Source: Oscillospiraceae bacterium (GTDB lineage Bacteria > Bacillota > Clostridia > Oscillospirales > Oscillospiraceae). From it: a DNA stretch of 32,193 nt. Location: the NCBI GenBank assembly GCA_017469115.1, contig JAFUGY010000051.1, positions 1-32,193 on the forward strand. The letters are read 5' to 3'. The position numbers were made by a program, and so were the translations under genes. This document shows, piece after piece, positions 1,777 to 32,193 of this stretch. Position 1 is the stretch's first letter, and each line of letters starts with the position of its first letter. The notes under the pieces are model-generated. The model was not told the origin of the DNA. It saw only the letters and a list, made by a program, of their open reading frames with translations, and did no database searches.

Positions 1777-1805
1777 TTGATGGAAAGAGTGAAATGTGGT
1801 ATGGT
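1777..1805 (+). promoter_or_regulatory. Possible promoter of the ABC exporter pair
   Basis: TTGATG at 1777-1782, a 17-bp spacer and TATGGT at 1800-1805 lie about 60 bp upstream of the chosen start at 1865. The match is moderate. No local regulator gene sits beside this transporter other than the Rrf2 gene upstream of the terminator. Confidence 0.45.
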
Positions 1806-1864
1806 ATTGCACAATTCCTGTCAAAAGAGGAAAGACGGAACAGAAGGGAAAGGATTGGGAACCC

Positions 1865-3637
1865 ATGCTGAAAATTTTCCGGTTTATGAAGAAGCAGGAT
1901 ATCGGTTATGCTCTGCTGTGTCTGCTTCTGGTGGCGGGGCAAGTCTGGTTTGACTTAACGATGCCCGATTATATGAGTGACATCACCAAGCGGATCGTCA
2001 CGCCGGGCAGCGCTATGACGGAGATCTGGCTATCCGGTGCAAAAATGCTCGGCTGTGCCCTGGGAAGCGCTGCGATGGCTGTGATTGTAGGCTATTTTGC
2101 AGCAAGGCTTGCCTCGAATTTCAGCTATACCATACGGGAAAAGGTGTTTCACCGCGTCACGGATTTCGGCGCACAGGAAATCAAGCAATTTTCTACCGCA
2201 AGCCTGATCACCCGCACCACCAACGACATTACCCAGATTCAGATGCTGGTCGCGATGGGGCTTCAGGTGATGATCAAAGCCCCGATTATGGCTGTCTGGG
2301 CAGTTCTGAAAATCGTCGGGAAGAGTTGGGAACTTTCTCTTCTGACAGCCGGAGCGGTTGTGCTGATTCTGGTGGTTATTCTGATTCTGATGCGACTTGT
2401 TCTGCCGAAATTCCGGATCATTCAACAGCAGATTGATGAAGTAAACCGCATTACCCGCGAAAATCTGACAGGGCTGCGTATCGTGCGTGCCTTCAATGCG
2501 GAAGCTTACCAGGAAGAGAAGTTTGAAACTGCAAACCGCAACCTGATGGAAACCCAGCTGTATACTTCCCGGAAAATGGCCGTTCTGATGCCGTTTATCT
2601 CCATGATTATGAGCACGTTGAGCCTTGGCATTTACTGGCTCGGCGCTTCCCTTGTCAACAATATCCCTCTCACGGGTCCTGAAGCAATTGCGATGCGCGT
2701 CAACACCTTCAGCGAAGTGGTGGTTTTCTCTTCCTATGCAATCTATGTAGTCATGTCGTTTATGATGCTGGTGGTCATCTTTATGATGTGGCCGCGTGCT
2801 CAGGTTTCGGCTGCCCGTATTGAAGAGGTGCTCTCCACCCGGCCGCACATCACAGAAGGCAGCGGAACCGAAGGCTCCGGGCACGGCAGCCTTGCCTTTC
2901 GCCATGTTTTCTTCCGCTATGCCGACGCATCGGAAGATTGCCTGCAGGACATCACCTTTGATGTGAACCCGGGAGAAACGGTTGCGATCATCGGATCGAC
3001 GGGATCATCGAAATCCACCCTCATTTCTCTTGCTGCCCGGCTCTATGATGCCACACAGGGAGAAATCCTGCTGGACGGAAAGGACATCCGGGATTATACC
3101 TTTGCTCAGCTTTACAGAAAAGTCGGGCTGGTGACGCAGAAAGCAGTGTTGTTTTCCGGCACGGTAGAGGAAAACCTGACTTTCGGTGACGCCGGGAACC
3201 CGATTTCGCAGAGTGATCAGGAAGCTGCGCTGGACATCGCGCAGGCATCAGACTTTGTAGAGAACCTCCCGGAGAAACGGCAGGCCAGAATTGCGCAGGG
3301 CGGCGCCAATCTGTCCGGCGGGCAGAAGCAGCGCCTGGCAATCGCCCGCACCATTGCCCGCAAACCGGAAATTCTGATTTTTGACGATTCTTTTTCCGCA
3401 CTTGACTTTCGCACCGATGCCGCTTTGCGGAAACGGCTTGCCACCGACCTGAAAGGTACCACCTGCCTGATCGTCGCCCAGAGAATCGGAACGGTAAAAC
3501 ATGCAGACCGGATTGTCGTTCTGGAAGAGGGAAAAGCCGTCGGGATCGGGACGCATGAAGAACTGATGAAAACCTGCAGCGTCTATCGGGAGATCGCACT
3601 CTCACAGCTTTCCCAGGCGGAATTGGAGGTGGGCTGA
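1865..3637 (+). CDS. Heterodimeric ABC multidrug exporter, subunit with degenerate ATPase site
   Basis: This half-transporter has an N-terminal six-helix exporter domain (residues about 12-310) and a C-terminal nucleotide-binding domain. Three key positions depart from canonical: Walker A reads GSTGSSKST (residues 377-385, Ser382 where Gly is usual), the catalytic glutamate is Asp508 (IFDD), and the switch histidine is Gln539 (VAQRI). The signature LSGGQ is intact. This is the pattern of the non-hydrolysing-site subunit in BmrC/LmrC/TM287-type heterodimers. The start at 1865 (MLKIFRFMKKQD) matches the family; a 23-codon upstream extension is not supported. The gene ends one base before its partner begins. 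The substrate is unknown; drug or lipid export is inferred from family. Confidence 0.9.
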   Translation: MLKIFRFMKKQDIGYALLCLLLVAGQVWFDLTMPDYMSDITKRIVTPGSAMTEIWLSGAKMLGCALGSAAMAVIVGYFAARLASNFSYTIREKVFHRVTDFGAQEIKQFSTASLITRTTNDITQIQMLVAMGLQVMIKAPIMAVWAVLKIVGKSWELSLLTAGAVVLILVVILILMRLVLPKFRIIQQQIDEVNRITRENLTGLRIVRAFNAEAYQEEKFETANRNLMETQLYTSRKMAVLMPFISMIMSTLSLGIYWLGASLVNNIPLTGPEAIAMRVNTFSEVVVFSSYAIYVVMSFMMLVVIFMMWPRAQVSAARIEEVLSTRPHITEGSGTEGSGHGSLAFRHVFFRYADASEDCLQDITFDVNPGETVAIIGSTGSSKSTLISLAARLYDATQGEILLDGKDIRDYTFAQLYRKVGLVTQKAVLFSGTVEENLTFGDAGNPISQSDQEAALDIAQASDFVENLPEKRQARIAQGGANLSGGQKQRLAIARTIARKPEILIFDDSFSALDFRTDAALRKRLATDLKGTTCLIVAQRIGTVKHADRIVVLEEGKAVGIGTHEELMKTCSVYREIALSQLSQAELEVG

Positions 3638-3638
3638 A

Positions 3639-5447
3639 ATGGCAGAACACAGAGGCGGCCCCCGGCGCGGCCCCGGCCGTGTGGCAGAAAAGCCGCATAA
3701 TATGAAAAAAGCCATGTCCGATCTCCTGCGTTACTGCAGAAGGGACATGCCGATCATCGTCATTGCGCTGATTCTGTCCGCGGGAGGCGCGATTTTGGGC
3801 ATCCTCGGCCCCAGACAGATCAGCCGGATCACCGACCTGATTGCTACAGGGCTCAGCACCGGCATTGACATGGCAGCGATTGCCCGCATCGGGCTTTTGC
3901 TGATGGGGCTTTTCGGTTTCAGCGCACTGTTCACCTTCCTGCAGCACTATCTGATGGCGGGGTTCAACCAGCGGACGTCAAAACGGATGCGCAAGGACAT
4001 TGTGGAAAAGATCAATCGGCTCCAACTGAGCTATTTCAACTTCCATGAACACGGGGATGTGCTCTCCCGCGTCACCAATGATGTGGATACCGTCAGCGCT
4101 TCCCTTTCCAATTCCCTGGCATCCATTGTCTCCTCCACAGCGCAGTTTATCGGGTGCCTGATCATGATGGTGATTACCAACTGGGTCATGGCTGCTACTT
4201 CCGTTTTTTCCACTTTTCTGGCTTTTCTGCTGATGATGATCATCGTAAAATCATCCCAGAAGTATTTTGTTGCCCGCCAGAAAAATCTCGGAAACCTGAA
4301 CGGCTATATCGAAGAGATGTATACCGGGCACGATGTCATCCGCATTACCAATGCGGATCAGAAAGTGAAGGACGAATTTGACGTGCTGAACCGTGCGGTA
4401 AAGGAATCCAACTTCAAGTCCCAGTTTCTTGGCGGCCTGATGCAGCCTCTGATGGGTTTTATCGGCAATTTCGGCTATGTAGCCGTTTGCGTGGTGGGTG
4501 CAGCGCTTGCGATGAGAGGCACCATCTCGTTTGGCGTCATTACCGCTTTTATGATTTACGTCCGTCAATTTCAAAGCCCGGTGCAGCAGATCGGCCAAGC
4601 CATGACCAATATCCAATCGGCTGCAGCGGCGGCAGAGCGCGTGTTTGAATTTCTGGGTGAAGAAGAGCTGGAGGAAGAATCCGGCAAAGCAGTCGCTCCG
4701 GCCCAGGTGCGCGGTGAAGTGGAGTTCAGGCATGTAACATTCGCTTATCCGGATAAACCGGAAGAAACCATCATCCACGACTTCTCCGCTCATGTTTACC
4801 CCGGACAGAAAGTCGCCATTTGCGGGCCCACGGGAGCGGGTAAAACAACTTTAGTTAATCTTCTTATGCGGTTTTATGAGACCACCGGCGGAGATATCCT
4901 GATTGACGGGATCAACATCAAAGATATGAAACGCAGCGAAGTGCACGACCGGTTCGGCATGGTGCTGCAGGACACCTGGCTTTTTGAAGGCACCGTGCGG
5001 GAAAACCTCCTGTACAACACTGAGCATGTAACCGATGAACAAATGAAAGCTGCCTGCAAAGCGTGCGGTATTCACTCCTTCATCAAAGCCCTTCCGGAAG
5101 GTTACGATACGGTTCTCAACGACAATACAGCCATTTCAGCCGGGCAGAAACAGCTGATGACGATTGCACGCGCCATGATTCAGAACAGCCCCATGCTGAT
5201 TCTGGATGAAGCCACTTCTTCGGTCGATACCCGCACCGAGCTGATCACCCAGCAGGCGATGGATCGGATGACGGAACATCGCACCAGCTTTGTGATTGCC
5301 CATCGCCTCTCCACCATCCGGAATGCAGACATGATTCTTGTTCTGCGGGATGGAGATATTGTGGAACAGGGAAACCATGAACAGCTTCTGGCTCAAAACG
5401 GCTTCTATGCGGAACTGTACAACAGCCAGTTTGAAACCGTAGCATAA
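3639..5447 (+). CDS. Heterodimeric ABC multidrug exporter, catalytic subunit
   Basis: This 602-residue partner begins one base after the previous stop, with its GGAGG ribosome binding site inside that gene's end. A basic, Gly/Pro/Arg-rich head (about 24 residues) precedes the six-helix membrane domain (about 30-330) and the nucleotide-binding domain. Walker A is canonical (GPTGAGKT, residues 396-403), as are the catalytic Glu524 in LILDEATSS and the switch His555 in VIAHRLS. The signature is altered to ISAGQ. In the assembled dimer this weak signature faces the degenerate Walker site of the partner, while the partner's LSGGQ completes the one active site here. That is the asymmetric arrangement of BmrCD, LmrCD and TM287/288. 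A strong terminator follows. Confidence 0.92.
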   Translation: MAEHRGGPRRGPGRVAEKPHNMKKAMSDLLRYCRRDMPIIVIALILSAGGAILGILGPRQISRITDLIATGLSTGIDMAAIARIGLLLMGLFGFSALFTFLQHYLMAGFNQRTSKRMRKDIVEKINRLQLSYFNFHEHGDVLSRVTNDVDTVSASLSNSLASIVSSTAQFIGCLIMMVITNWVMAATSVFSTFLAFLLMMIIVKSSQKYFVARQKNLGNLNGYIEEMYTGHDVIRITNADQKVKDEFDVLNRAVKESNFKSQFLGGLMQPLMGFIGNFGYVAVCVVGAALAMRGTISFGVITAFMIYVRQFQSPVQQIGQAMTNIQSAAAAAERVFEFLGEEELEEESGKAVAPAQVRGEVEFRHVTFAYPDKPEETIIHDFSAHVYPGQKVAICGPTGAGKTTLVNLLMRFYETTGGDILIDGINIKDMKRSEVHDRFGMVLQDTWLFEGTVRENLLYNTEHVTDEQMKAACKACGIHSFIKALPEGYDTVLNDNTAISAGQKQLMTIARAMIQNSPMLILDEATSSVDTRTELITQQAMDRMTEHRTSFVIAHRLSTIRNADMILVLRDGDIVEQGNHEQLLAQNGFYAELYNSQFETVA

Positions 5448-18786: not shown

Positions 18787-19797
18787 ATGAGCAGCCCACT
18801 TTTACCCTATGTATTTCAAAATGCACATTTTTCTGAATGTATCACGGTGAAAGCCTCAGCTACCGGTTTTTACCGCCATGCTGAAGCTGGCCCTTCCTTT
18901 ATTCTCTGGGACAGCACAGGAGAGGGTCTGTCTGTCTACCATGTGGTCCAAAACCAACAGCCGGAACAAGTCACTACACCATTTGTCCCCGGCAAAGCTA
19001 CAGGGACTCATCAGCATGAGGATATTGAGATTCTGTACGTGATTCAGGGCTCTATTTCACAAAATATAGCGGGCGAGACCTATCACTTTCAGCAGCACGA
19101 AGTTGTTCTGATTAATCAGGGGATTCCGCATTTTGACTATCTCCCCGCTCGGGATAGCTGTATTCTTTTCCTGTCTATTCCGAATACGCTTTTTATCCAA
19201 TTATTTCGAAACAGCATTCATTCCCCTTACAAAAACTTCATCGCTGATCTTCTTGTTGAACACAAATCCGATTATACACATATTCATGGAACTCCCAAAA
19301 CACAGGTTCGTGCCGGAGGTTACTTCCAGGCTGAACAAGCTCTCCTCGAAATATGCAGAGAAATTGCCAACACTCAACCGGGATCGACTCACATCATCCG
19401 CGGAAATATCATCCGGTTGATTTATCATCTCGCTCTGGAGTATCACTTTGATCTTCCCGAATATTCACAGGCTAATATGCGGAAGCTTCTTTTTGATGAA
19501 ATCACTGCAGACATCAAAAAAGACTGCAGAAACACTACAATTGAGTCTCTGCAGAAGAAATACTATTTCAATCGGGATTATTTCAATCGTTTGATCAAAG
19601 AATTCAGCGGATATACTTTCCGTGAATTGCGCCAGAATATCCGTCTGGAAGAGGCGAAGCGTTTGCTGCTGGAAACAGATACCCGAGTAGATGATGTGGC
19701 GCTTGCCGTAGGATATGAAAATCGGGGCTTTTTCTATCGTCTTTTCGCGAAAAAATATGGGAAAACACCGAGAGAATATCGGCTTGCGGAACGCTGA
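18787..19797 (+). CDS. AraC family transcriptional regulator
   Basis: This 336-residue regulator has an N-terminal cupin-type sensing domain (about 60-135) with the metal/ligand motif GTHQHEDIEILYVIQG and HQ...GIPHFDY. The C-terminal AraC domain of two helix-turn-helix motifs (about 238-333) includes ESLQKKYYFNRDYFNRLIKEFSGYTFRELRQ and the signature VDDVALAVGYENRGFFYRLFAKKYGKTPREYR. It diverges from the GH3 operon by about 170 bp, the usual arrangement for a local sugar-responsive activator, so control of that operon is the best guess. The inducer is unknown. Confidence 0.93.
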   Translation: MSSPLLPYVFQNAHFSECITVKASATGFYRHAEAGPSFILWDSTGEGLSVYHVVQNQQPEQVTTPFVPGKATGTHQHEDIEILYVIQGSISQNIAGETYHFQQHEVVLINQGIPHFDYLPARDSCILFLSIPNTLFIQLFRNSIHSPYKNFIADLLVEHKSDYTHIHGTPKTQVRAGGYFQAEQALLEICREIANTQPGSTHIIRGNIIRLIYHLALEYHFDLPEYSQANMRKLLFDEITADIKKDCRNTTIESLQKKYYFNRDYFNRLIKEFSGYTFRELRQNIRLEEAKRLLLETDTRVDDVALAVGYENRGFFYRLFAKKYGKTPREYRLAER

Positions 19798-19824: not shown

Positions 19825-21336
19825 ATGGAATATCTATGGTATATCATTGCCGCTCTCGGTGCAGGCGTTGGCACAGGCCTGGCAGGGCTTTCTGCCGCCA
19901 CTGTCATGGTGCCGATTCTGATTGTGCTGTGCCCCTCCTTCTCCGGAGAGACAGGCGCTTACCAGGCAACGGCAATTGCCCTCGCCTCCGACATTCTCGG
20001 ATCTGCCGTTACCACCTATACCTATGCAAAACATAAAAACATCGATCTGAAGCGCGGGTGGATCATGCTTGTCTGCATCCTTGCCATGTGCACGGTAGGC
20101 AGCTATGTAGCGTTCATCGTCGGCAATGTGGTGCTGGGCGGATTCACGCTGTTCCTTACTTTTTTTATTGGAATTCGCTTTCTGGTAAAGCCCGATACCA
20201 GCCGAAAGAATCAGGCAGCCAAAGGCGAAAAGCTGGACGGGAAAGGCATTGCCATCTCCCTCTTTTTCGGGTTGACCATCGGGTTCGGCACCGGGTTCGT
20301 TGGCACGGGAGGCGGCATGATGATGCTGATTGTGTTTACTGCCTTCCTTGGGATGGAGCTGAAAACAGCGGTCGGCACCAGCACCTTTATTATGACTTTT
20401 ACAGCGCTGATCGCCTCCGTCAGCCATATTCTTATTCACCCGGCAATTGTGCTGGAAAAATGGAATGTCATGCTGATCTGCATCATTGTTGCAACCGCTG
20501 CGAGCCTGATTTCTGCCCGGTTTGCCAACCGCGTCAGGAGCCGGACGGTCGGCCTTGTGACAGGTGCCGTGCTGACCGTGTTGGGTGGAGCCATGCTGAT
20601 TCTCAACTACTGGAGTTTTCTTTCTCAGTTCGCTCTTTTCACAGATATTCTGCACTGCTTTGGTATTCTGATCGCTTATATTGTTCCCTGTGTTCTGGTC
20701 GCACTGCCGATTCGTTTTCTGACAAAGATCCCGTCCTTCATCTTCCGAAAACTGCTACACATCATCGCTTTTACCTGCATTTCCCTGATGATTCTGGCTG
20801 CAAAAAGCTGGCAGGCCGCTTCTTTGACTTCTGTATTGATTGCATTGATCATTTATCCGCTTCTCATGGCGGTTGAACATGAGAGTTGGTATCCCGATCT
20901 GTTTGTAGAAAAAGAACCCGGCGAAATCAAGAAGAGCCTTCTGATGCTTTTCTTCATGTTTGCTTTCCTCACTGCCGTTTGCTGGGGGATCTTCCGCCAA
21001 CCGGCACTCGCTGCTGTTGCAATCTTCATGTGGGGAACCGGTGATGCCGCGGCTGCTCTGATCGGAATTCCCTTCGGAAAGCATAAAGTAAAATCAAGGC
21101 TGACTGACGGCAAAAAGTCATTGGAAGGCAGTGCTGCTATGCTGCTGGTTTCTTTCTGCTGCGGTCTGGGCATGCTTGTAACCGTGTTGAAAATGCCGCC
21201 CCTGCAGGCTGGGTTGATTGCGGTGGTCGGAGCTTTGGCAGGCACTGTGACAGAATTATTTTCTCCCAGTGAAGATGGCACCGTATCCGTGCCAGTCGTA
21301 ATTGCGGCTGCTCTTCTCTTCCTGATGAAATCATGA
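19825..21336 (+). CDS. Fusion of TauE/SafE (TSUP) transporter and dolichol/phytol-kinase-like domain
   Basis: This 503-residue polytopic protein has two parts. Residues 1 to about 270 form a TSUP permease: two copies of the family's half, with GTGLAGLSAATVMVP near the start and GTGFVGTGGGMMML with KTAVGTSTF in the second half. Such proteins move sulfite, sulfoacetate or related anions. Residues about 285-503 resemble the CTP-dependent polyprenol/phytol kinase family: RKLLHI (308-313), GDAAAALIGIPFG (Asp407) and GKKSLEGS (429-436). The two halves are in one frame with no internal start that is obviously stronger. The gene starts 27 bp after the AraC stop with an AGGAG site. The substrate linking the two activities is not known; a joint role is inference. 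Confidence 0.8.
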   Translation: MEYLWYIIAALGAGVGTGLAGLSAATVMVPILIVLCPSFSGETGAYQATAIALASDILGSAVTTYTYAKHKNIDLKRGWIMLVCILAMCTVGSYVAFIVGNVVLGGFTLFLTFFIGIRFLVKPDTSRKNQAAKGEKLDGKGIAISLFFGLTIGFGTGFVGTGGGMMMLIVFTAFLGMELKTAVGTSTFIMTFTALIASVSHILIHPAIVLEKWNVMLICIIVATAASLISARFANRVRSRTVGLVTGAVLTVLGGAMLILNYWSFLSQFALFTDILHCFGILIAYIVPCVLVALPIRFLTKIPSFIFRKLLHIIAFTCISLMILAAKSWQAASLTSVLIALIIYPLLMAVEHESWYPDLFVEKEPGEIKKSLLMLFFMFAFLTAVCWGIFRQPALAAVAIFMWGTGDAAAALIGIPFGKHKVKSRLTDGKKSLEGSAAMLLVSFCCGLGMLVTVLKMPPLQAGLIAVVGALAGTVTELFSPSEDGTVSVPVVIAAALLFLMKS

Positions 21337-23763: not shown

Positions 23764-24876
23764 TTAGAATAACTGGCGGCGCGCACGCTCTTTATCGGCT
23801 GCCATATCATCGGCAGGATACCACATCGGTTCCACCAGATGAACGAAGCATTTTTCTCCTTCGGAGAATGTGATGCGGTGAGGCGTCTGCACCTTCAGGA
23901 GCTGATCTCCGACGGGCACCAGATACTCCGTGCGGTCTGTGAGGAAAATACGTTTTTCAATGTGGCTGGCGAATCCGCCTTCTCCCGGCCCTGTCAGTGC
24001 AATTTCGTTGGGGCGGGTAGCCACAACCATCTCGGAGGCAACATCCTGCGGCACAGGGAGATCCAGCGCCTGTTCCATATGGCCTTTGGGGTACGCTTTG
24101 CCATCCTTGATAGCAACATTGATAAACGTGCTCTCTCCGAGGAAGTTGTGCACGAACCGGTTGCACGGTTTATTATACAGATTTTCAGGGGTATCGATCT
24201 GCATAATTTTACCCATGTCGCAAACCATCATACGGTCAGAGATCGCCATTGCTTCCGACTGGTCATGCGTGACGAAAATAATGGTAAAGTTGAATTTTCT
24301 CTGGAGCGCTTTGATTTCAAAACGCATCGTCTCACGGAGTTTCGGATCGAGGTTTGAAAGAGGCTCATCGAGAAGCATCACCTTCGGGTTGGTTACGATT
24401 GCACGGGCCAGCGCAATACGCTGCTGCTGACCGCCGGAGAGATCTCCCGGGAAAACATTTTCCAACCCGGTCAGGCTGGTATGATGCAATGCTTCGTTGA
24501 CCCGTTTGGTGATATCTGTTTTATTCAGCTTCTGAATCCGCAGCGGGAAAGCCACATTCTCGAAAACATTCATATGCGGCCAGACCGCAAATGCCTGGAA
24601 CACCATGCCGAGGCCGCGCTCTTCCGGAGGAATATACAGATTCTTCTTTTTGCTGGAAACCAGCTTACCGCACAGTTCAATTTCGCCTTCCGTCAGATCC
24701 TCAAAGCCGGCAATCATACGAAGGGTTGTCGATTTTCCACAGCCCGACGGGCCCAAAAAAGAGAAGCATTCTCCTTCATGCACGCGGAGATTGAAATCAT
24801 CCACGGCGACAATGTCGCCCAGAGTCTTGGTAGTGAACCGTTTTGTAACGTGATCAAGCACAATCTGGTCTGCCAT
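23764..24876 (-). CDS. ABC importer ATPase, second copy (FbpC/PotA-like)
   Basis: This 370-residue cytosolic ATPase powers the permease encoded just upstream. It has Walker A GPSGCGKST, the Q-loop VFQAFAVWPHM, signature LSGGQQQR, Walker B VMLLDEP, the D-loop SNLD, and the switch histidine in FVTHDQSEAM. A C-terminal TOBE-like regulatory domain (about 240-365, VVATRPNEIALTG) follows. It is the last gene of the operon and starts three bases after the permease stop with a GGGGG site. It is clearly different from the ATPase encoded on the other side of the permease, so the operon supplies two NBDs for one fused permease. Confidence 0.92.
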   Translation of the reverse strand: MADQIVLDHVTKRFTTKTLGDIVAVDDFNLRVHEGECFSFLGPSGCGKSTTLRMIAGFEDLTEGEIELCGKLVSSKKKNLYIPPEERGLGMVFQAFAVWPHMNVFENVAFPLRIQKLNKTDITKRVNEALHHTSLTGLENVFPGDLSGGQQQRIALARAIVTNPKVMLLDEPLSNLDPKLRETMRFEIKALQRKFNFTIIFVTHDQSEAMAISDRMMVCDMGKIMQIDTPENLYNKPCNRFVHNFLGESTFINVAIKDGKAYPKGHMEQALDLPVPQDVASEMVVATRPNEIALTGPGEGGFASHIEKRIFLTDRTEYLVPVGDQLLKVQTPHRITFSEGEKCFVHLVEPMWYPADDMAADKERARRQLF

Positions 24877-24879
24877 GGA

Positions 24880-26604
24880 TCAAACCCCCTTCCTGTCTTT
24901 GGTGAGTTTGGTGACAATCGTATTGAGGATAATGATAATGCCGATTGCAACCGTTGCCAGTGCCGCAGCCTGCGGAATCATACCGGCATCACGCAGAGAG
25001 TAAATCTGAACACCGAGGGTTCTGGTGTACGGACCGTAGAGCAAAATGGAAGTCGTGACTTCACGCATAGCCGGGAGGAAGATCAGGAAGAAGCCACTCA
25101 CCATTGCAGGGCGAATCAGCGGCAGGGTGACATCCGCCAGGCTTTCCGTATGGGATGCGCCGCAGACACGGGCTGCCTCTTCCAGAGAGGAATGCACCTG
25201 CAGCAAAGCTGCGGAAGAGGTTTTCATACTGAAGGAAAGATAGCGGGCCAGATATGCCACCAGAATAATCCAGATGGTATTATACAGGTTGATGCCGGCA
25301 ATGCGCCCGCTCCATGCCAAAATGACACCGATCGACAAGACCGTGCCTGGGATCGCGTATGGCAGCATGGAGATCACTTCCAGAACGCCCTTTCCTCTCG
25401 GCCTGATTTTCTGCACGACATAGGCAACCAGCGTGCCGAGGAACATACAGATAATACCGGCCGTGATGGAAACAAACAAGGAGTTGCGGATAGCGGCGAT
25501 GGTGCCGTTTGCGGAGAACACCTTCTGATACTGGGCAAAGGTAAAGTTCTTGAACGTGAGCGGCAGACCGTACGCTTTCAGGAAGGAAATCAGAACGATC
25601 ATGACCAGCGGTACAATCACGATCAGCACCAGCGTTAGAATTGCGAGAAGGAACAGAGGGATTTTCGCTCCGCGCAGTTTAATGAGAGTGGGGCGCATAG
25701 ACTTGCCCTTGATAATATCATAGCTGCCGGAGGAGAGGATTTTATTCTGTAAAACAAGCGCAAGCGCAACCACAACCACCAACATAACGGAGAGCGCTGC
25801 CCCCTGACGAATCCCGTCAAAAGATCCGCCGGAGTTATAGATCACAGCATAAATACGCGTCGGAAGTGTATAAATGCCCTTTGCATATCCCAGAATCGAA
25901 GGGACGCCGAAATGCGCCAAAGAGGTTGTCAGAATCAGCAGAGCACCGGCGGAAATAGCCGGCTTTACCAGAGGAAGTGTAATTTTCAGAATAACCTGCC
26001 CCTGTTTTGCTCCTGCAATACGGGCTGACTCTTCAAGCGTCGGATCCATACGCTCCAGAGCAGAGACCACCTGCATAAACACAAACGGGAAGTAATAGCT
26101 GACTTCCACGAACACAATGCCCCACACCGAGTTGATATTAATGGGCATAGATTTCAGATGGAAAATGCTCACCAGCCATTTGTTGATGTAACCGGAGCGG
26201 CCGTTGAACATCATATCCCATGCCATAGCGCCGAGGAACGGCGGGAACATGTACGGGATGTTGAACAGTGCCCTCATCAGCCCTTTCGCCGGAATATCGC
26301 TGCGGCCCAGAAGCCAGGCATAGAAAACGCCCATGATGGTGCCGAGGATTGTGGCAAACACGGCAATCTTCAAGGTGTTCCACATGGCTTCCAGATTTTT
26401 CTTTTCCGAGATCTGCTGGACAAACATGTCCACCTCGAGCTTGCCCTCGTTGAAGAAGGCATTGTAGATGATCATCACAATCGGGATAACCACGATAATC
26501 AAAAGCAGGATAAAGCAGACTACCGTCATCACTTTGTCCATATTCAGGCGCTTATGCCCGTCAACTGCAGCCAGCTCAGCGCTCACGCCACCGTATTGTT
26601 TCAT
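24880..26604 (-). CDS. ABC importer permease, two fused BPD domains (FbpB-like)
   Basis: This 574-residue inner membrane permease has about twelve helices made of two binding-protein-dependent transport domains in one chain. Each carries an EAA-type cytoplasmic loop for the ATPase: LEESARIAGAKQGQVILKITLPL in the first half (about 190-212) and LEEAARVCGASHTESLADVTLPL in the second (about 480-505). Double-domain permeases of this kind are typical of Fe3+ (FbpB/SfuB), thiamine (ThiP) and some phosphonate importers. The start overlaps the upstream ATPase stop by four bases (ATGA), indicating translational coupling; the site is GGAGGAG. The substrate is not defined by sequence. Confidence 0.93.
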   Translation of the reverse strand: MKQYGGVSAELAAVDGHKRLNMDKVMTVVCFILLLIIVVIPIVMIIYNAFFNEGKLEVDMFVQQISEKKNLEAMWNTLKIAVFATILGTIMGVFYAWLLGRSDIPAKGLMRALFNIPYMFPPFLGAMAWDMMFNGRSGYINKWLVSIFHLKSMPININSVWGIVFVEVSYYFPFVFMQVVSALERMDPTLEESARIAGAKQGQVILKITLPLVKPAISAGALLILTTSLAHFGVPSILGYAKGIYTLPTRIYAVIYNSGGSFDGIRQGAALSVMLVVVVALALVLQNKILSSGSYDIIKGKSMRPTLIKLRGAKIPLFLLAILTLVLIVIVPLVMIVLISFLKAYGLPLTFKNFTFAQYQKVFSANGTIAAIRNSLFVSITAGIICMFLGTLVAYVVQKIRPRGKGVLEVISMLPYAIPGTVLSIGVILAWSGRIAGINLYNTIWIILVAYLARYLSFSMKTSSAALLQVHSSLEEAARVCGASHTESLADVTLPLIRPAMVSGFFLIFLPAMREVTTSILLYGPYTRTLGVQIYSLRDAGMIPQAAALATVAIGIIIILNTIVTKLTKDRKGV

Positions 26605-27686
26605 GCCGTTGCTCCTCCTTTCTGTGCCGGATAGAAGCGGGTGTTCAGAAACCGGATTCCGATGGTTTCTCCCTCTTCCGCGACGCCCTTCGTGCGGGCA
26701 TCCAGCATACTCTGCTGGACACGGATCTGTTTTTTACCGAGGGAAAGAAAATAGTTATACTCGCTGCCCAGGAACACCCTGGAATCTACTTTCGCTTTCA
26801 GCGGTGATGCCGGATCGAACACAATATCATTCGGGCGTACGCCAAGCTCAAACCCGCCGTTTTCCACTTCTTTGGGAATTGCATCGGCATACGGAATCAT
26901 CTCTCCGCAATCCAACGCCACCGAATTGCCGTTTTTCACCACCGGAATGAAATTGGAAACCCCGATAAACTCAAACGTAAACCGGTTTGCCGGGTGGAGA
27001 ATGATCTCTTCATCCGTGCCATACTGGCACAGGGTTCCATCCAGCTGCATAATGGCCATCTTGTCGCAGAGCTGCAGGGCAGACTGCTGGTCATGCGTGA
27101 TATAGAGAATGGTAGCATTCAGGCGCTTCTGAATCATCCGGATTTCCAGAAGCATTTCTTCGCGTAGCTTTGCATCCAGGTTGGTGATGGGCTCATCCAT
27201 CACCAGCACGTCACTGTCCACAACAAGTGCTCTGGCAATCGCCACGCGCTGCTGCTGTCCGCCGGAAAGCTGGTTCGGCAGGTGGTTTGCATACTCCGTC
27301 ATATGCACCTGCTCCAGAGCCCGCATGGCTCTTTCCCGGATTTCCTCTTTGGGGCGGCGTTGTTTTTTCAGCGGGTACGAAACATTTTCCACCACAGTCA
27401 TGTGGGGCCAAACGGCATAGTCCTGAAAGACAATGCCGATATTTCTTTTTTCTGCGGGAACATTGATGCGTTTTTTTGCATCGAACAAAATACGGTCTCC
27501 CACGGTGATTGTGCCTGTTTCAGGCTTATTCAGGCCGAGCAGGGCACGGACTAAGGTTGTTTTTCCGCATCCGCTTGGCCCCACAAGGCACACAATTTTC
27601 CCGCTTTCCACTTCGAGGGAAAAATTATCCAGAACCGTGTTTGACCCGTAACGGACGGTGATATTGTCAAATTTTACGTTTGCCAT
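26601..27686 (-). CDS. ABC importer ATPase, first copy (FbpC/PotA-like)
   Basis: This 361-residue ATPase has Walker [10 protein letters not shown], the Q-loop [11 protein letters not shown], signature LSGGQQQR, Walker B VLVMDEP and the switch histidine in [12 protein letters not shown]-terminal TOBE-like domain (about 240-355, [14 protein letters not shown]) follows. The start at 27686 ([14 protein letters not shown]) has a clear AGGAGAAGGAT site; the open frame extends 52 codons upstream through the hairpin and is not used. Together with the downstream permease and second ATPase it forms the membrane part of the importer, and the binding protein gene lies upstream across an attenuator hairpin. 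Confidence 0.93.
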
Positions 27687-27716
27687 ATCCTTCTCCTTCA
27701 GGTCATGATGATATGA

Positions 27717-27759
27717 TAAGAAAAACGGGCATGCCCACCGGGAAGGTGGTGCATGCCCG
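27717..27759 (-). terminator. Attenuator hairpin between binding protein and ATPase genes
   Basis: CGGGCATGC-CCACC and its complement (27726-27739 with 27745-27759) form a 14-bp stem with one bulged base and a short loop, followed on the minus strand by GTTTTTCTT. Partial termination here would make binding protein mRNA exceed that of the membrane components, as is usual for such operons. Confidence 0.82.
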
Positions 27760-27771
27760 GACAAAGCAGGA

Positions 27772-28764
27772 TTACTTGTCGAAGATTTTGTTGAAGGTAT
27801 CCAGATAGGTCTGCAGATTCTCGCCAAGGTCGTTGTAATCAACTTCCATGTTGATGGCAGCGATGGCAGAAGTGTCTACCTGCATCTCAACATCATCACG
27901 CACAGACACCAGGTTATTGGCAACAAGAACTTCCTGGCCTTCCTTGGAGAGGATGAAGTCCATCAACAGTTTGCCGTTTTCTTCATTGGCGCAGCCTTTG
28001 ATCAGAGCGACCGGGCTTGTCATGGTGATGACATCTTCCGTGGTGTAGTGGAACATCATGGGAGAGCCTTCTGCAATCAGGTTTGCAGAGACATAGTCAA
28101 GGCAGATACCGACCTGGTAGGAGGCATCAGCAACACGGTTATGGGTGGCAGTGGTTCCGCTCTCAAGCTCAACGCCGTTGTCTTTCAAAGCCTGGAAGTA
28201 ATCCGGGCCATACTTGGGGGACTGCATCATAGCAGCCATCCAGTACTTCGTGGTGGAAGCCTGGGACGGGTCCGTCATGATGATCTGGTTGTACCATTTG
28301 GGGTCAAGCAGGTCATTCCAGGTCTTCGGTGCGTCTTCTTCCTCAACGCCGATAAACCATGCAATACCCATTGTCACCAGACGGCCAGCCGTGTAATATC
28401 CATCGGGATCCATGTACTCTTTTGCGATATGATCCGTCTCAGGAGAGACATAGGGCTCCAGCCAGCCATTCGCCTTGAATGCTTCATAGTCAGAAGGATC
28501 GCCCAGCCACACAAGGTCACTGGCAATCTGGCCGCCGTCCTGTGCTTCTGTTGTCATCTTGGTGACAAGCTTGCCGCCGCCGGCATAGTAGTATTCCATA
28601 TCAACAGTAGGATACTTTGCTTCGAATGCCTGTTCAATCGCCTGCAGCTGTGCTTCCTGCATGGAGGAATACAGCATTACTTTGCCGGAGGGCTCTGCAA
28701 ATGCCGCTGCGGACAAAGCCAGAACCATCACAAGCGCAAGAATCATTGCCAAGGTCTTTTTCAT
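27772..28764 (-). CDS. ABC importer periplasmic-type substrate-binding protein (FbpA/AfuA-like)
   Basis: This 330-residue binding protein captures substrate for the importer encoded downstream. A signal peptide (MKKTLAMILALVMVLALSAA...) ends in AFA-E near residue 23 and has no lipobox cysteine. The mature part has the two-lobe family pattern: GKVMLYSSMQEAQ, YYYAGGGKLVTKM, LVWLGDPSDYEAF, TDPSQASTTKYW and ICLDYVSANL. These place it in the family 1 group that takes Fe3+, 2-aminoethylphosphonate or similar ligands. A tandem Tyr pair like that which binds iron in FbpA is not evident in the later half, so iron is only one option. It is the first gene of the operon, with ribosome binding site GGAGAC. 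Confidence 0.9.
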   Translation of the reverse strand: MKKTLAMILALVMVLALSAAAFAEPSGKVMLYSSMQEAQLQAIEQAFEAKYPTVDMEYYYAGGGKLVTKMTTEAQDGGQIASDLVWLGDPSDYEAFKANGWLEPYVSPETDHIAKEYMDPDGYYTAGRLVTMGIAWFIGVEEEDAPKTWNDLLDPKWYNQIIMTDPSQASTTKYWMAAMMQSPKYGPDYFQALKDNGVELESGTTATHNRVADASYQVGICLDYVSANLIAEGSPMMFHYTTEDVITMTSPVALIKGCANEENGKLLMDFILSKEGQEVLVANNLVSVRDDVEMQVDTSAIAAINMEVDYNDLGENLQTYLDTFNKIFDK

Positions 28765-28887: not shown

Positions 28888-30636
28888 TTATGCCTCTTGT
28901 TTCTTCACCTTCCAGCTGGCGGCTTCGCGGCGCTCGCCGATGAAGGCTTTATAAATACCTTCCTGCTTCATCAGGGACTCATGAGTCCCCTGCTGCACCA
29001 CTTTGCCATGATCAATCACAAGAATCTGATCGGCGTGTTCCACGGTTTTCAGCCGATGGGCAATCATAATCACCGTTTTTTCCGCTGTCAGTGCCTGGAT
29101 TGCCCGCATCAGCTCATTTTCATTCTCCGGATCCACGTTGGCAGTCGCTTCATCGAGAAAGATGACCGGCGCATCCTTCATCATGGCACGGGCAATGGAA
29201 ATCCTCTGTTTTTCCCCACCGGACAGGCTTGCCCCGCCCTCTCCGATTACAGTATCGTATCCGTCGGGAAGGGCCATGATAAAGTCGTGGCAGCATGCCT
29301 TCTTTGCGGCCTTCATTACTTTCTCCATCGGCGCATCGGGCTGGCCGAATCGGATATTGTTGGCAATGGTATCATGGAAGAGATAAACATTCTGAAACAC
29401 AAAGGAGAAGTTTTCCATCAGAGAATCCATATCATAGTCTTTGACGTTTCTCCCGTCGAGAGTCACCTTCCCGGCATCGGTATCCCAGAACCGGGCGAGC
29501 AGATTCACCAGTGTGGTTTTGCCGCCTCCCGACGGCCCGACAATGGCTGTGGTGGTCTTCTCCGGAATCTGAAGGGAAATCCCATCGATTACCTTGCGTT
29601 TTTCATAGGAAAACACCACATTTTCCGCGTTGATGTCCCGCTTTTGCGGCCGGATGTTCTCTCCGGAAATATCCATCTGCGGTGTATCCAGAATTTCCTG
29701 TGCGCGCTCTACGCTGACATCCACCACACGAAGCAGAGCGGAATAATTCCCTGCGGTTTCCAGACTTGCATATACAATGAAAGCGGAAATCACCATCACA
29801 ACCGCTGTCAGTGCATCCATTGTCCCGGCGCAGTAAAATGCACAGGAAAATCCCACCATGCAGACACCCGTCAGTTTTGCGAGGAAGCTCTGCGCTGTCA
29901 TACGCGGGATCAGCGTCATCTCCATATCCGTGTTGATCTGGCAGTTGGCTGCAATTGCATCATTCAGTTCCTTGCTTTTCCTCCCTGTGAGATGATAGGC
30001 CTTGACTTCTGCCATTCCCTGCAGATATTCCAGCACTTTTTCCACGAGCTTTTCATCGGCATCAATCTTTCGTCCGGCAAGGGATCCGGCAGCCTTCTGC
30101 AAAAAGCTGTTAGCGACCAGGAATACCGCGAACCCGGCCAAAAGCACAAGTGCAATACGCCAATCAAAGAAAAGCAGCATTACAATGATCAGAGATGTCG
30201 TCAAAAGCCCCTCGCATACCAGCATCACAACACGGGTTGCCACATTTTCCAGGCTCTCCATCACATTGGTGGTGACAGAAGTGATCTGGCCAAGTGAATT
30301 TTCGTTGAAATATCCCATCGGTAAATAACGCATGTGCTCTGCAATCTCCACCCGTTTCTTCGCACAGGTGTCATATCCGGCTTCCGTCTGGAGCATTGTG
30401 CTTCTGGCTTTGATCAGCCCGGAGCCGAGAATGCTGACGAGCATAATGCCGAGAGATAACAGAATATCCTGCGTCGTAACACTGCCCCTCAGCAGGGCGC
30501 GGGCCATGCCGGCAATGGCCGGGATTTTCAGTGCCTCAAAAATAGCCTGCAGGACCCCCAACAGGATAGAAGTGCGGAATTTGCGCCGATTCTCTTCTCC
30601 GCAGAAAGCGAAAAACCTGCGTATGATATTAACCAT
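28888..30636 (-). CDS. ABC half-transporter, second subunit (YbtPQ/IrtAB-like)
   Basis: This 582-residue protein has an exporter-type six-helix domain (about 15-310) and an intact NBD: Walker A GPSGGGKTT, signature LSGGEKQR, Walker B VIFLDEATANVDPENE and the switch His in MIAHRLKT. The DEATA-x-x-DPENE wording after Walker B is common in the siderophore-linked pairs YbtP/YbtQ and IrtA/IrtB, which despite their exporter fold import metal-siderophores; other members of the clade have unknown substrates. The start codon overlaps the upstream subunit's stop by eight bases, indicating coupled translation. The importer operon follows in the same direction. Its function as siderophore importer is inference. 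Confidence 0.88.
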   Translation of the reverse strand: MVNIIRRFFAFCGEENRRKFRTSILLGVLQAIFEALKIPAIAGMARALLRGSVTTQDILLSLGIMLVSILGSGLIKARSTMLQTEAGYDTCAKKRVEIAEHMRYLPMGYFNENSLGQITSVTTNVMESLENVATRVVMLVCEGLLTTSLIIVMLLFFDWRIALVLLAGFAVFLVANSFLQKAAGSLAGRKIDADEKLVEKVLEYLQGMAEVKAYHLTGRKSKELNDAIAANCQINTDMEMTLIPRMTAQSFLAKLTGVCMVGFSCAFYCAGTMDALTAVVMVISAFIVYASLETAGNYSALLRVVDVSVERAQEILDTPQMDISGENIRPQKRDINAENVVFSYEKRKVIDGISLQIPEKTTTAIVGPSGGGKTTLVNLLARFWDTDAGKVTLDGRNVKDYDMDSLMENFSFVFQNVYLFHDTIANNIRFGQPDAPMEKVMKAAKKACCHDFIMALPDGYDTVIGEGGASLSGGEKQRISIARAMMKDAPVIFLDEATANVDPENENELMRAIQALTAEKTVIMIAHRLKTVEHADQILVIDHGKVVQQGTHESLMKQEGIYKAFIGERREAASWKVKKQEA

Positions 30637-32193
30637 TGTCCTTCACCTCCATATGGGCTTTCCACATCATCTCGTACAGAGCGTGGTGGCTGAGCAGCTG
30701 CTCATGAGTCCCTTCATCCTCGATTCTGCCGTCCCGGACCACATAGATACAGTCGGCATCCATCACAGTCGACAGGCGGTGGGCAATCACGATGAGGGTT
30801 TTGCCTTCCGTGAGCTTTGAGACCGACCGCTGGATCACTGCCTCGTTTTCCGGATCGGTATAGGCGGTCGCCTCATCCAAAATCACGACAGGTGCTGCCT
30901 TCAGCATGGCACGCGCAATGGAAATGCGCTGCCGTTCTCCGCCGGAAAGGTGCCCGCCGGAAGAGCCGACCATCGTGTCATACCCGTTTTCAAGGCTCAT
31001 AATAAAGTCATGGCAGCCGCTTTGTCTGGCCGCTTCTTCCACTTCTGCATCAGTTGCAGACGGGTGGCCGAGGCGGATATTCTCACGCACGGTCATGTTG
31101 AACAGGTAGTTATCCTGTGAGACAAAGGCAATTCTGTCGGCATAAACCTCCTGCGGGATGGTCCGGATATCCTGACCGCCCAGGGTAATACAGCCATCCG
31201 AAACGTCCCACAGGGAAGCAATCAAACGGGCAATGGTGCTCTTGCCGCTCCCGCTGGGCCCGACGAGGGCAACAAAGCTACCCTCCGGAATCCGTAGGGA
31301 CACCCCGTGGAGCACCTCGGCCTCCTGATAGGAAAAGTGCACATCCTTCAGTTCCAGATCGTTCTTCACGGGAGCAGCTCCTTCTTCCGGGCGTTCCATT
31401 TCCGGCGCTTCGAGGATGGACCGCACTTCTCCAAAGATCGTGCCCATGGTGCGAAAGTCATCGGAATAGCTCATCATGGTGATAATCGGTGTAATCACAC
31501 CGACGGAGAGGATGATGATGGTTACAAAGTTCTGAGCACTTAATGATCCGCTCTTGACAAGCAGCCCGCCGATCGGCAGCACGCTCACCATGGTAGCCGG
31601 CATAATAACCATGGCAAACGTAAAGGGAATGATGCTGGCCCGCATCCAGTCGATAAAGCTGTGGGCTGCTTCATACGCATCATGCACAAAGCGCTCATAG
31701 CTGGATTTGGTTTTCCCGAAAACCTTGATCACCTGAATCCCGCCGATGTATTCAACCGCGGTGTCATTCAACGCCTTGGTCGCCGTAACCGTATGTTCGT
31801 AAAATTTTGCGCTGCCTGCCATCATAAACACATAGCAGAACATTCCGAGCGGCACCGTGGCAAGGCTTGCCAGTCCCATCCGCCAATCGATTGTGAAGAT
31901 ATAGATCAGGATAATGATTGGGATCAGCAGATTTGCTGTAAATTCCGGCACAATATGGGCAAGTGTGGTTTCAATGCTGTCGATGCGCTCGATCAGTGTG
32001 TTTTTCAGTGCGCCGGAACTCTGCTCCAGCACAGTCCCCAACGGCATCCGTGTCAGCTTTTCCATGCAGCGTTTGCGGATCTCTCCCAGCACAGCGAACG
32101 TGGCTTTGTGGCTTGTGGCTGTTGACAGCGCATGGAAAAGAACTCTCGCAAGCCATAATGCCGCCATGATCAGGCACCGGGTAAGATAGAACG
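30629..32193 (-). CDS. ABC half-transporter, first subunit, N-terminus beyond window edge
   Basis: The frame remains open to the right edge, so the real start lies outside and perhaps the first 60-70 residues are missing. The visible 520 residues contain most of the membrane domain and a complete NBD with Walker A GPSGSGKST, signature LSGGERQR, Walker B VVILDEATAYTDPENE and the switch His in VIAHRLST. Both ATP sites of the pair therefore look active, unlike the exporter pair at 1865-5447. The sequence belongs to the same YbtPQ/IrtAB-like clade as its partner, which overlaps its last eight bases. Substrate and promoter are not visible here. Confidence 0.88.
   Translation of the reverse strand, partial: FYLTRCLIMAALWLARVLFHALSTATSHKATFAVLGEIRKRCMEKLTRMPLGTVLEQSSGALKNTLIERIDSIETTLAHIVPEFTANLLIPIIILIYIFTIDWRMGLASLATVPLGMFCYVFMMAGSAKFYEHTVTATKALNDTAVEYIGGIQVIKVFGKTKSSYERFVHDAYEAAHSFIDWMRASIIPFTFAMVIMPATMVSVLPIGGLLVKSGSLSAQNFVTIIILSVGVITPIITMMSYSDDFRTMGTIFGEVRSILEAPEMERPEEGAAPVKNDLELKDVHFSYQEAEVLHGVSLRIPEGSFVALVGPSGSGKSTIARLIASLWDVSDGCITLGGQDIRTIPQEVYADRIAFVSQDNYLFNMTVRENIRLGHPSATDAEVEEAARQSGCHDFIMSLENGYDTMVGSSGGHLSGGERQRISIARAMLKAAPVVILDEATAYTDPENEAVIQRSVSKLTEGKTLIVIAHRLSTVMDADCIYVVRDGRIEDEGTHEQLLSHHALYEMMWKAHMEVKDNG

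Follow-up and report, generated by a model that had tools for sequence, protein, structure and literature searches.

A TauE/SafE permease joined to a phytol/dolichol-kinase-like membrane domain in an Oscillospiraceae bacterium, and the pairing of related domains with a CDF-like protein

Permeases of the TSUP family, which includes TauE, SafE and YfcA (Pfam PF01925), are described in PMC12671195 as having few characterised members and substrates that appear broad. The COG0170 membrane kinases include the phytol kinase VTE5, the farnesol kinase FOLK and the dolichol kinase SEC59; kinases of this type possess two conserved aspartates presumed in PMC5898192 to be catalytic, and one prenol kinase that has been modelled is described as having an Arg-Lys-x-x-His clamp (PMC10849223). 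One review counts only a handful of identified polyprenol and prenol kinase genes, in plants and a cyanobacterium (PMC9782597). Domains of both kinds occur in larger proteins. For instance, two-domain COG0170-COG1836 proteins (SEC59-like plus DUF92), such as Mbar_A3310, are reported in PMC5898192, and MamO of magnetotactic bacteria combines an enzyme-type domain with a TauE domain that is needed for activating MamE; according to the same source, the metal-binding role of MamO works without its TauE domain (PMC4794232). The gene described here, at positions 19825-21336 on the + strand of a 32,193 nt contig (JAFUGY010000051.1, assembly GCA_017469115.1) from an Oscillospiraceae bacterium that probably lives in an animal gut, joins a TSUP permease to a phytol/dolichol-kinase-like membrane domain; the whole contig was analysed and is termed the window. 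A full-text literature search, with most subscription journals outside its scope, found no description of a fusion between TauE/TSUP and a phytol, dolichol or polyprenol kinase, in keeping with a preliminary description of this sequence in which the combination was considered unusual; similarly, no pairing of CDF with a dolichol or phytol kinase was described among the titles that such a search returned. Both families are known; what appears to be new is their conserved combination, in which one partner is interchangeable.

The open reading frame is uninterrupted, begins with ATG and encodes 503 residues. Its N-terminal domain (residues 1-262; 19825-20610, + strand) is a full-length TSUP member, as the preliminary description had proposed: PF01925 matches residues 6-257 with 113.8 bits against a cut-off of 32.6 (E-value 1.3e-32 in the whole protein and 1.8e-33 in the N half alone), and profile positions 1-237 of 237 are covered. 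Unlike other permeases of the family it has a second membrane domain attached, and close unfused TSUP copies stop near the residue 262 boundary. A PDB search with this half returned one chance match (E-value 0.58). The junction (residues 263-272; 20611-20640, + strand) is predicted to lie on the outer side of the membrane when 13 fused proteins are averaged for hydropathy and charge. The same averages place basic loops at residues 60-80, 118-142, 229-245, 300-310 (with the RK of the clamp) and 409-439 (with GKHK and KKSLEG), and indicate that residues 265-272 are uncharged, a pattern compatible with an active site facing the cytosol and a junction on the outer side.

The C-terminal domain (residues 273-503; 20641-21333, + strand) had been regarded as kinase-like on the basis of three motifs, all of which are present: RKLLHI at residues 308-313, GDAAAALIG at 406-414 and GKKSLEGS at 429-436. 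In an alignment of 68 related domains, which leaves out the fragments L021, L024, L028 and L107, the CdsA-type rows L044-L046 and duplicates, the Arg, Lys and His of the clamp (RKLLH, residues 308-312; 20746-20760, + strand) are invariant (68/68), as is the first conserved Asp, D407, within GDAAAALIG (21040-21066, + strand). Within GKKSLEGS (21109-21132, + strand), K431 is found in 66, E434 in 64 and G435 in all 68 domains.

The kinase-like assignment of this half held in profile-profile comparison, although a simple scan of it with hidden Markov models found no curated family: no Pfam or NCBIfam model exceeded its cut-off, Acyl_transf_3 giving a weak match below it (E-value 0.0016), in a model set that did not extend to PF28421, the dolichol kinase family named in PMC13397572. 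Among 56 related domains, one matches CTP_transf_1 (E-value 3e-4) and two match the phosphatidate cytidylyltransferase model PRK11624 (best E-value 3.5e-4). A profile of close relatives of the C domain (A1) aligned in hhalign with kinase-like COG0170-type domains (A9), in four of whose proteins Pfam confirms DUF92, over 213 columns with 99.8% probability and an E-value of 1.6e-27; the possibility that the C half would match just TSUP or generic membrane proteins, raised in the preliminary description, was not what emerged. The domain is thus supported as COG0170-type, phytol/dolichol kinase-like, by whole-domain profile similarity together with the motifs, a link that runs through DUF92-fused domains and leaves characterised VTE5, FOLK and SEC59 sequences outside the comparison. 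The clamp and the Asp of the GD motif are common to VTE5, FOLK, SEC59 and the window domain, and the D[TN]xxxP block of COG0170 kinases is found in relatives of the latter; unlike these three enzymes, the window domain is fused to TSUP, is missed by the Pfam and NCBIfam models scanned and is without the second conserved Asp. Like the COG0170-COG1836 proteins, relatives of this kind being recovered by a window-type profile, it is a COG0170-type domain joined to a second membrane domain, but their partner is kinase-like and lies on the C side, whereas the partner here is a transporter on the N side. PF01940 (DUF92/VTE6) has no match in the window protein or the window genome. PDB sequence searches with the C domain and with its profile gave no match, and nor did searches of a plasmid collection.

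The same architecture is present at 20 other loci, giving a total of 21 with the window: four named records of metagenome-assembled genomes and 16 genomes, and because of these the fusion is not an assembly error. The 12 fused relatives that were aligned are 52-78% identical to the window protein over its whole length. The preliminary description had also allowed for separate genes with a stop at the junction; no examined locus has TSUP and kinase genes adjacent and split in this way. When GTDB contigs were scanned with the C half, nine loci were found, of which four (L017, L019, L020 and L023) are fused, with TSUP halves 85-92% and kinase halves 57-64% identical to those of the window. L019 is truncated by a contig end, L020 (3308-4690) has a 51-residue in-frame gap in its TSUP half, and L017 comes from a record labelled Flexilinea (Chloroflexota), which may reflect either transfer or mis-binning.

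Few genomes have the fusion. Within the window's genus it was found in four of 102 (G000, the window's own, G125, G110 and G117, in which it is frameshifted), while seven have an unfused C domain and one has a remote TSUP alone; in searches with the C-domain profile it was present in seven genomes of an order-wide sample of 394 and in 12 of 300 from the family. In a phylum sample of 398 genomes, the window's own genome was the sole source of the fusion among the 30 of 53 matches that were assigned an architecture, the other 23 being mostly weaker ones. The fusion gene is thus an accessory one with a patchy distribution, and it may be passed between species. By named records, the C-domain family as a whole is apparently found mostly in Bacillota.

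Relatives of the C domain that are unfused have a different kind of neighbour. In its near family (49 rows), 20 are fused to TSUP, 25 are linked to a gene for a small CDF-like membrane protein, which follows 25 of the 29 unfused rows, and four have neither in view. Remote rows, outside the near family, either have neither partner or are labelled DUF92-fused, a label based on open reading frame length and confirmed by Pfam in four of nine. A transporter-like partner, fused or adjacent, hence accompanies 45 of the 68 rows. The two-gene arrangement was observed at 26 loci (L002-L005, L012, L013, L029, L035-L037, L048-L053, L055-L060, L101-L103 and L107) spread over many families of the phylum; the CDF-like gene is downstream of the kinase-like gene and on the same strand in every case (26/26), and the matched domain starts no more than 81 nt past the kinase stop. 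No locus examined has both the TSUP fusion and a CDF-like gene, most flanks being about 1.5 kb or less. Since relatives either keep the join or pair the C domain with a different transporter, the pairing looks meaningful.

The CDF-like protein is about 200 residues long and exceeds the Pfam Cation_efflux cut-off in all four cases tested. In CDF cation exporters, the membrane part carries two metal pairs of the form HxxxD (or DxxxD). These metal-pair residues are not present in the CDF-like partner where checked: in ten of ten aligned rows the equivalent positions read RxxxE and KxxxD, against HxxxD and HxxxD in a single canonical CDF sequence (L156, from G049), the one of five canonical loci to pass the filter. 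When the PDB was searched with the profile of the CDF-like protein, just two matches resulted, both to designed proteins (E-values 0.12 and 0.13).

A tree of C domains was built from 46 rows, the 68 less 19 remote and three long-branch rows, and rooted on six rows, five of them remote and CDF-linked and the sixth lone. A 27-row clade (support 95/83) unites all 20 TSUP-fused rows with five CDF-linked rows from the window's genus and two lone rows, leaving 18 CDF-linked rows and one lone row outside. The five CDF-linked rows of the genus lie in a 17-row clade (100/97) with ten TSUP-fused and the two lone rows. Monophyly of all TSUP-fused rows is rejected by the approximately unbiased test (p = 1.5e-14), since some CDF-linked and lone rows fall within the group, and the nesting of the five genus rows implies that partners have been swapped. 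The simplest history suggested by this topology would start from pairing with the CDF-like protein, which fusion to TSUP then replaced; some members of the genus would later have reverted to CDF or lost their partner. As a quick tree of all 68 rows does not recover the 27-row clade, groups of six TSUP-fused, 14 CDF-linked and 22 rows meeting in one open fork, the older age of the CDF pairing depends on the 46-row tree and its rooting. In TSUP trees, which omit L014, L015 and L020 as well as most of the remote stand-alone TSUPs, the 20 fused copies and four close unfused TSUPs form one clade (100/100), apart from seven remote stand-alone TSUPs.

The homology of both halves, the conservation of the fusion and the exchange of the transporter partner with a separate CDF-like protein frame the interpretation that we favour, with a probability of roughly 0.45: that the gene encodes a bifunctional inner-membrane protein, in which a CTP-type lipid-alcohol kinase domain is tied to the permease of the same salvage or recycling step. 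As a family, the C domain would most likely transfer phosphate from CTP to a membrane alcohol, such as a prenol or polyprenol, at the cytosolic face. The end product is likely to be a monophosphate rather than a diphosphate, as no second-step kinase of the DUF92/VTE6 type was found in any of the 17 fused genomes searched (17/17, some incomplete). The weakest step in this proposal is that the TSUP permease would transport something belonging to that same step, be it an anion or the lipid that serves as precursor or product; which cargo it might be, the product of the kinase, its precursor or a counter-anion, is a matter of speculation. In the preliminary description, the protein was suggested to couple phosphorylation of a lipid carrier to the export of a sulfonate or some other organic anion, which is likewise speculative. 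A stronger form of the proposal, which we think unlikely, is a transporter-coupled lipid-alcohol kinase, for which two unrelated transporter folds, the fused TSUP and the separate CDF-like protein without a metal site, are interchangeable, and in which the lipid phosphate, or an obligate counter-anion, would be carried across the membrane by the transporter in step with synthesis by the kinase. Should the link prove functional, it would be a way into two questions, the substrates of TSUP permeases, which are mostly uncharacterised, and the recovery of lipid carriers or isoprenoid alcohols in bacteria without detected DgkA; the window's member of the C-domain family is itself unnamed by any Pfam or NCBIfam model scanned.

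Several observations weigh against a bifunctional protein of this kind, and particularly against strict coupling. Close unfused TSUPs (74-87% identity) occur in four genomes: in G141 and G961 no kinase gene adjoins them, in G456 and G199 contig ends lie nearby, and G141, G199 and G961 have no C-domain match at the thresholds used, while G456 carries a fused copy elsewhere. The neighbours of the fused genes do not form a conserved neighbourhood, an esterase in two genomes excepted. The patterns of DgkA and DUF92 indicate no specific pathway, setting aside the absence of DUF92 from the 17 fused genomes. Finally, the window copy alone has Gly in place of the second conserved Asp (G485, codon 21277-21279, + strand; EDGTVSVP, against EYDTVTVP in close relatives), which is present in 67 of 68 domains; the equation of the two Asp columns with the aspartates of PMC5898192 is our own.

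Directly downstream of the fusion, the two esterase genes lie at L077:9794-10720 in G125, where Pfam identifies an Abhydrolase_3 domain, and at L081:656-1570 in G428, whose product is 53% identical to the G125 esterase.

Two specific pathways were considered and found unsupported. Replacement of the undecaprenol kinase DgkA (PF01219) by the C domain might be suggested by the absence of DgkA from 16 of 17 genomes with the fusion and from 11 of 16 of the CDF type, but it is also absent from 17 of 17 control genomes of the same genus without the C domain; none of the 28 genus genomes tested, the window's included, has a match. Likewise, two-step salvage to a diphosphate via DUF92 finds little footing when that family is present in none of the 17 fused genomes, some of them incomplete, and in two of 16 CDF-type genomes.

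The absence of a conserved neighbourhood also favours a second reading, that each domain is active on its own and that joining them fixes just their co-production and membrane stoichiometry in some loosely shared process. This is a doubtful alternative, albeit one with several points in its favour: close TSUPs occur unfused, as do the kinases, and MamO offers a precedent in which an enzyme-type domain retains one role without the TauE domain (PMC4794232), even though its enzyme domain is protease-type rather than a membrane kinase and its domain order is opposite. The two halves also appear to be under different constraint. In comparisons of the window with seven fused relatives, non-synonymous divergence (dN) ranges from 0.05 to 0.11 for the TSUP half and from 0.25 to 0.43 for the kinase half, a roughly three- to sevenfold difference, with synonymous change (dS) near or at saturation. 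Yet the adjacency of 25 of 29 unfused near-family kinases to another transporter-like protein, and the lack of any locus with both partners, suggest a shared task.

Loss of the second Asp makes the activity of the window copy doubtful, and for this reason it is not classed here as an active COG0170 kinase. The Gly may represent a real loss, a tolerated shift, there being an Asp one position earlier in the window copy, or an assembly error. Less likely than independent domains is a C domain that is no longer catalytic, whether in the window lineage or in a wider group, and has become a structural or regulatory part of the permease. Besides the missing Asp, the window has Leu where nine of 12 aligned relatives have the Trp of KKSWEGS, and in one fused copy (L028, from G117) the gene is frameshifted near residue 365, within the kinase half. 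However, R308, K309, H312, D407, G435, E477 and P490 are all kept in the window copy, the second Asp is retained in all 19 further fused rows among the 68, and dN/dS is well below 1 where computable, on near-saturated dS.

It is more improbable again that the C domain, rather than phosphorylating, catalyses another reaction of the CDP-alcohol/CdsA superfamily, such as nucleotidyl transfer. It has a motif block in common with CdsA, GD or CD..A..G..GKHK...KK[ST].EG, and the fold of its AlphaFold2 model (mean pLDDT, the predicted local confidence score, 96.0) may resemble that of CdsA and CarS (PF01148), the top structural match being an enzyme of the archaeal CDP-archaeol synthase type. Set against this are the full-length alignment with kinase-type domains and the absence from the window domain of the CdsA C-terminal signature KR...KD...GHGG..DR.D, which the aligned CdsA-type rows possess. 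Profile-profile similarity to CdsA is also weaker (96.3%, 109 columns, E-value 1.8e-9), in an alignment (A8) from which L047 was excluded as non-CdsA and in which L025 is CdsA-type by Pfam and the other three rows by signature. A CdsA-type protein is encoded separately in the window genome (G000:C134; PF01148, E-value 6.4e-53). That the fusion is spurious, through faulty assembly or gene calling or through chance similarity of hydrophobic stretches, might seem plausible given a genome fragmented into 148 contigs and 89% complete, but this is refuted in effect by the independent copies and the full-length profile match of the C domain, and has a negligible probability.

Within the window, an AraC-type regulator gene (18787-19797, + strand) ends 27 nt upstream of the fusion gene, and is not conserved beside other fused genes. 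A gene for an Sfp-type 4'-phosphopantetheinyl transferase (PF01648; 21396-22073, - strand) is convergent with the fusion gene. Further along, at 23764-28764 on the - strand, there is by inspection an iron(III)-type ABC uptake set, with one two-domain permease and one binding protein flanked by two ATPase genes (24876-23764 and 27842-26601). Two ABC exporter gene pairs, heterodimer-like by inspection, lie at 1796-5447 (+ strand) and 28888-32167 (- strand).
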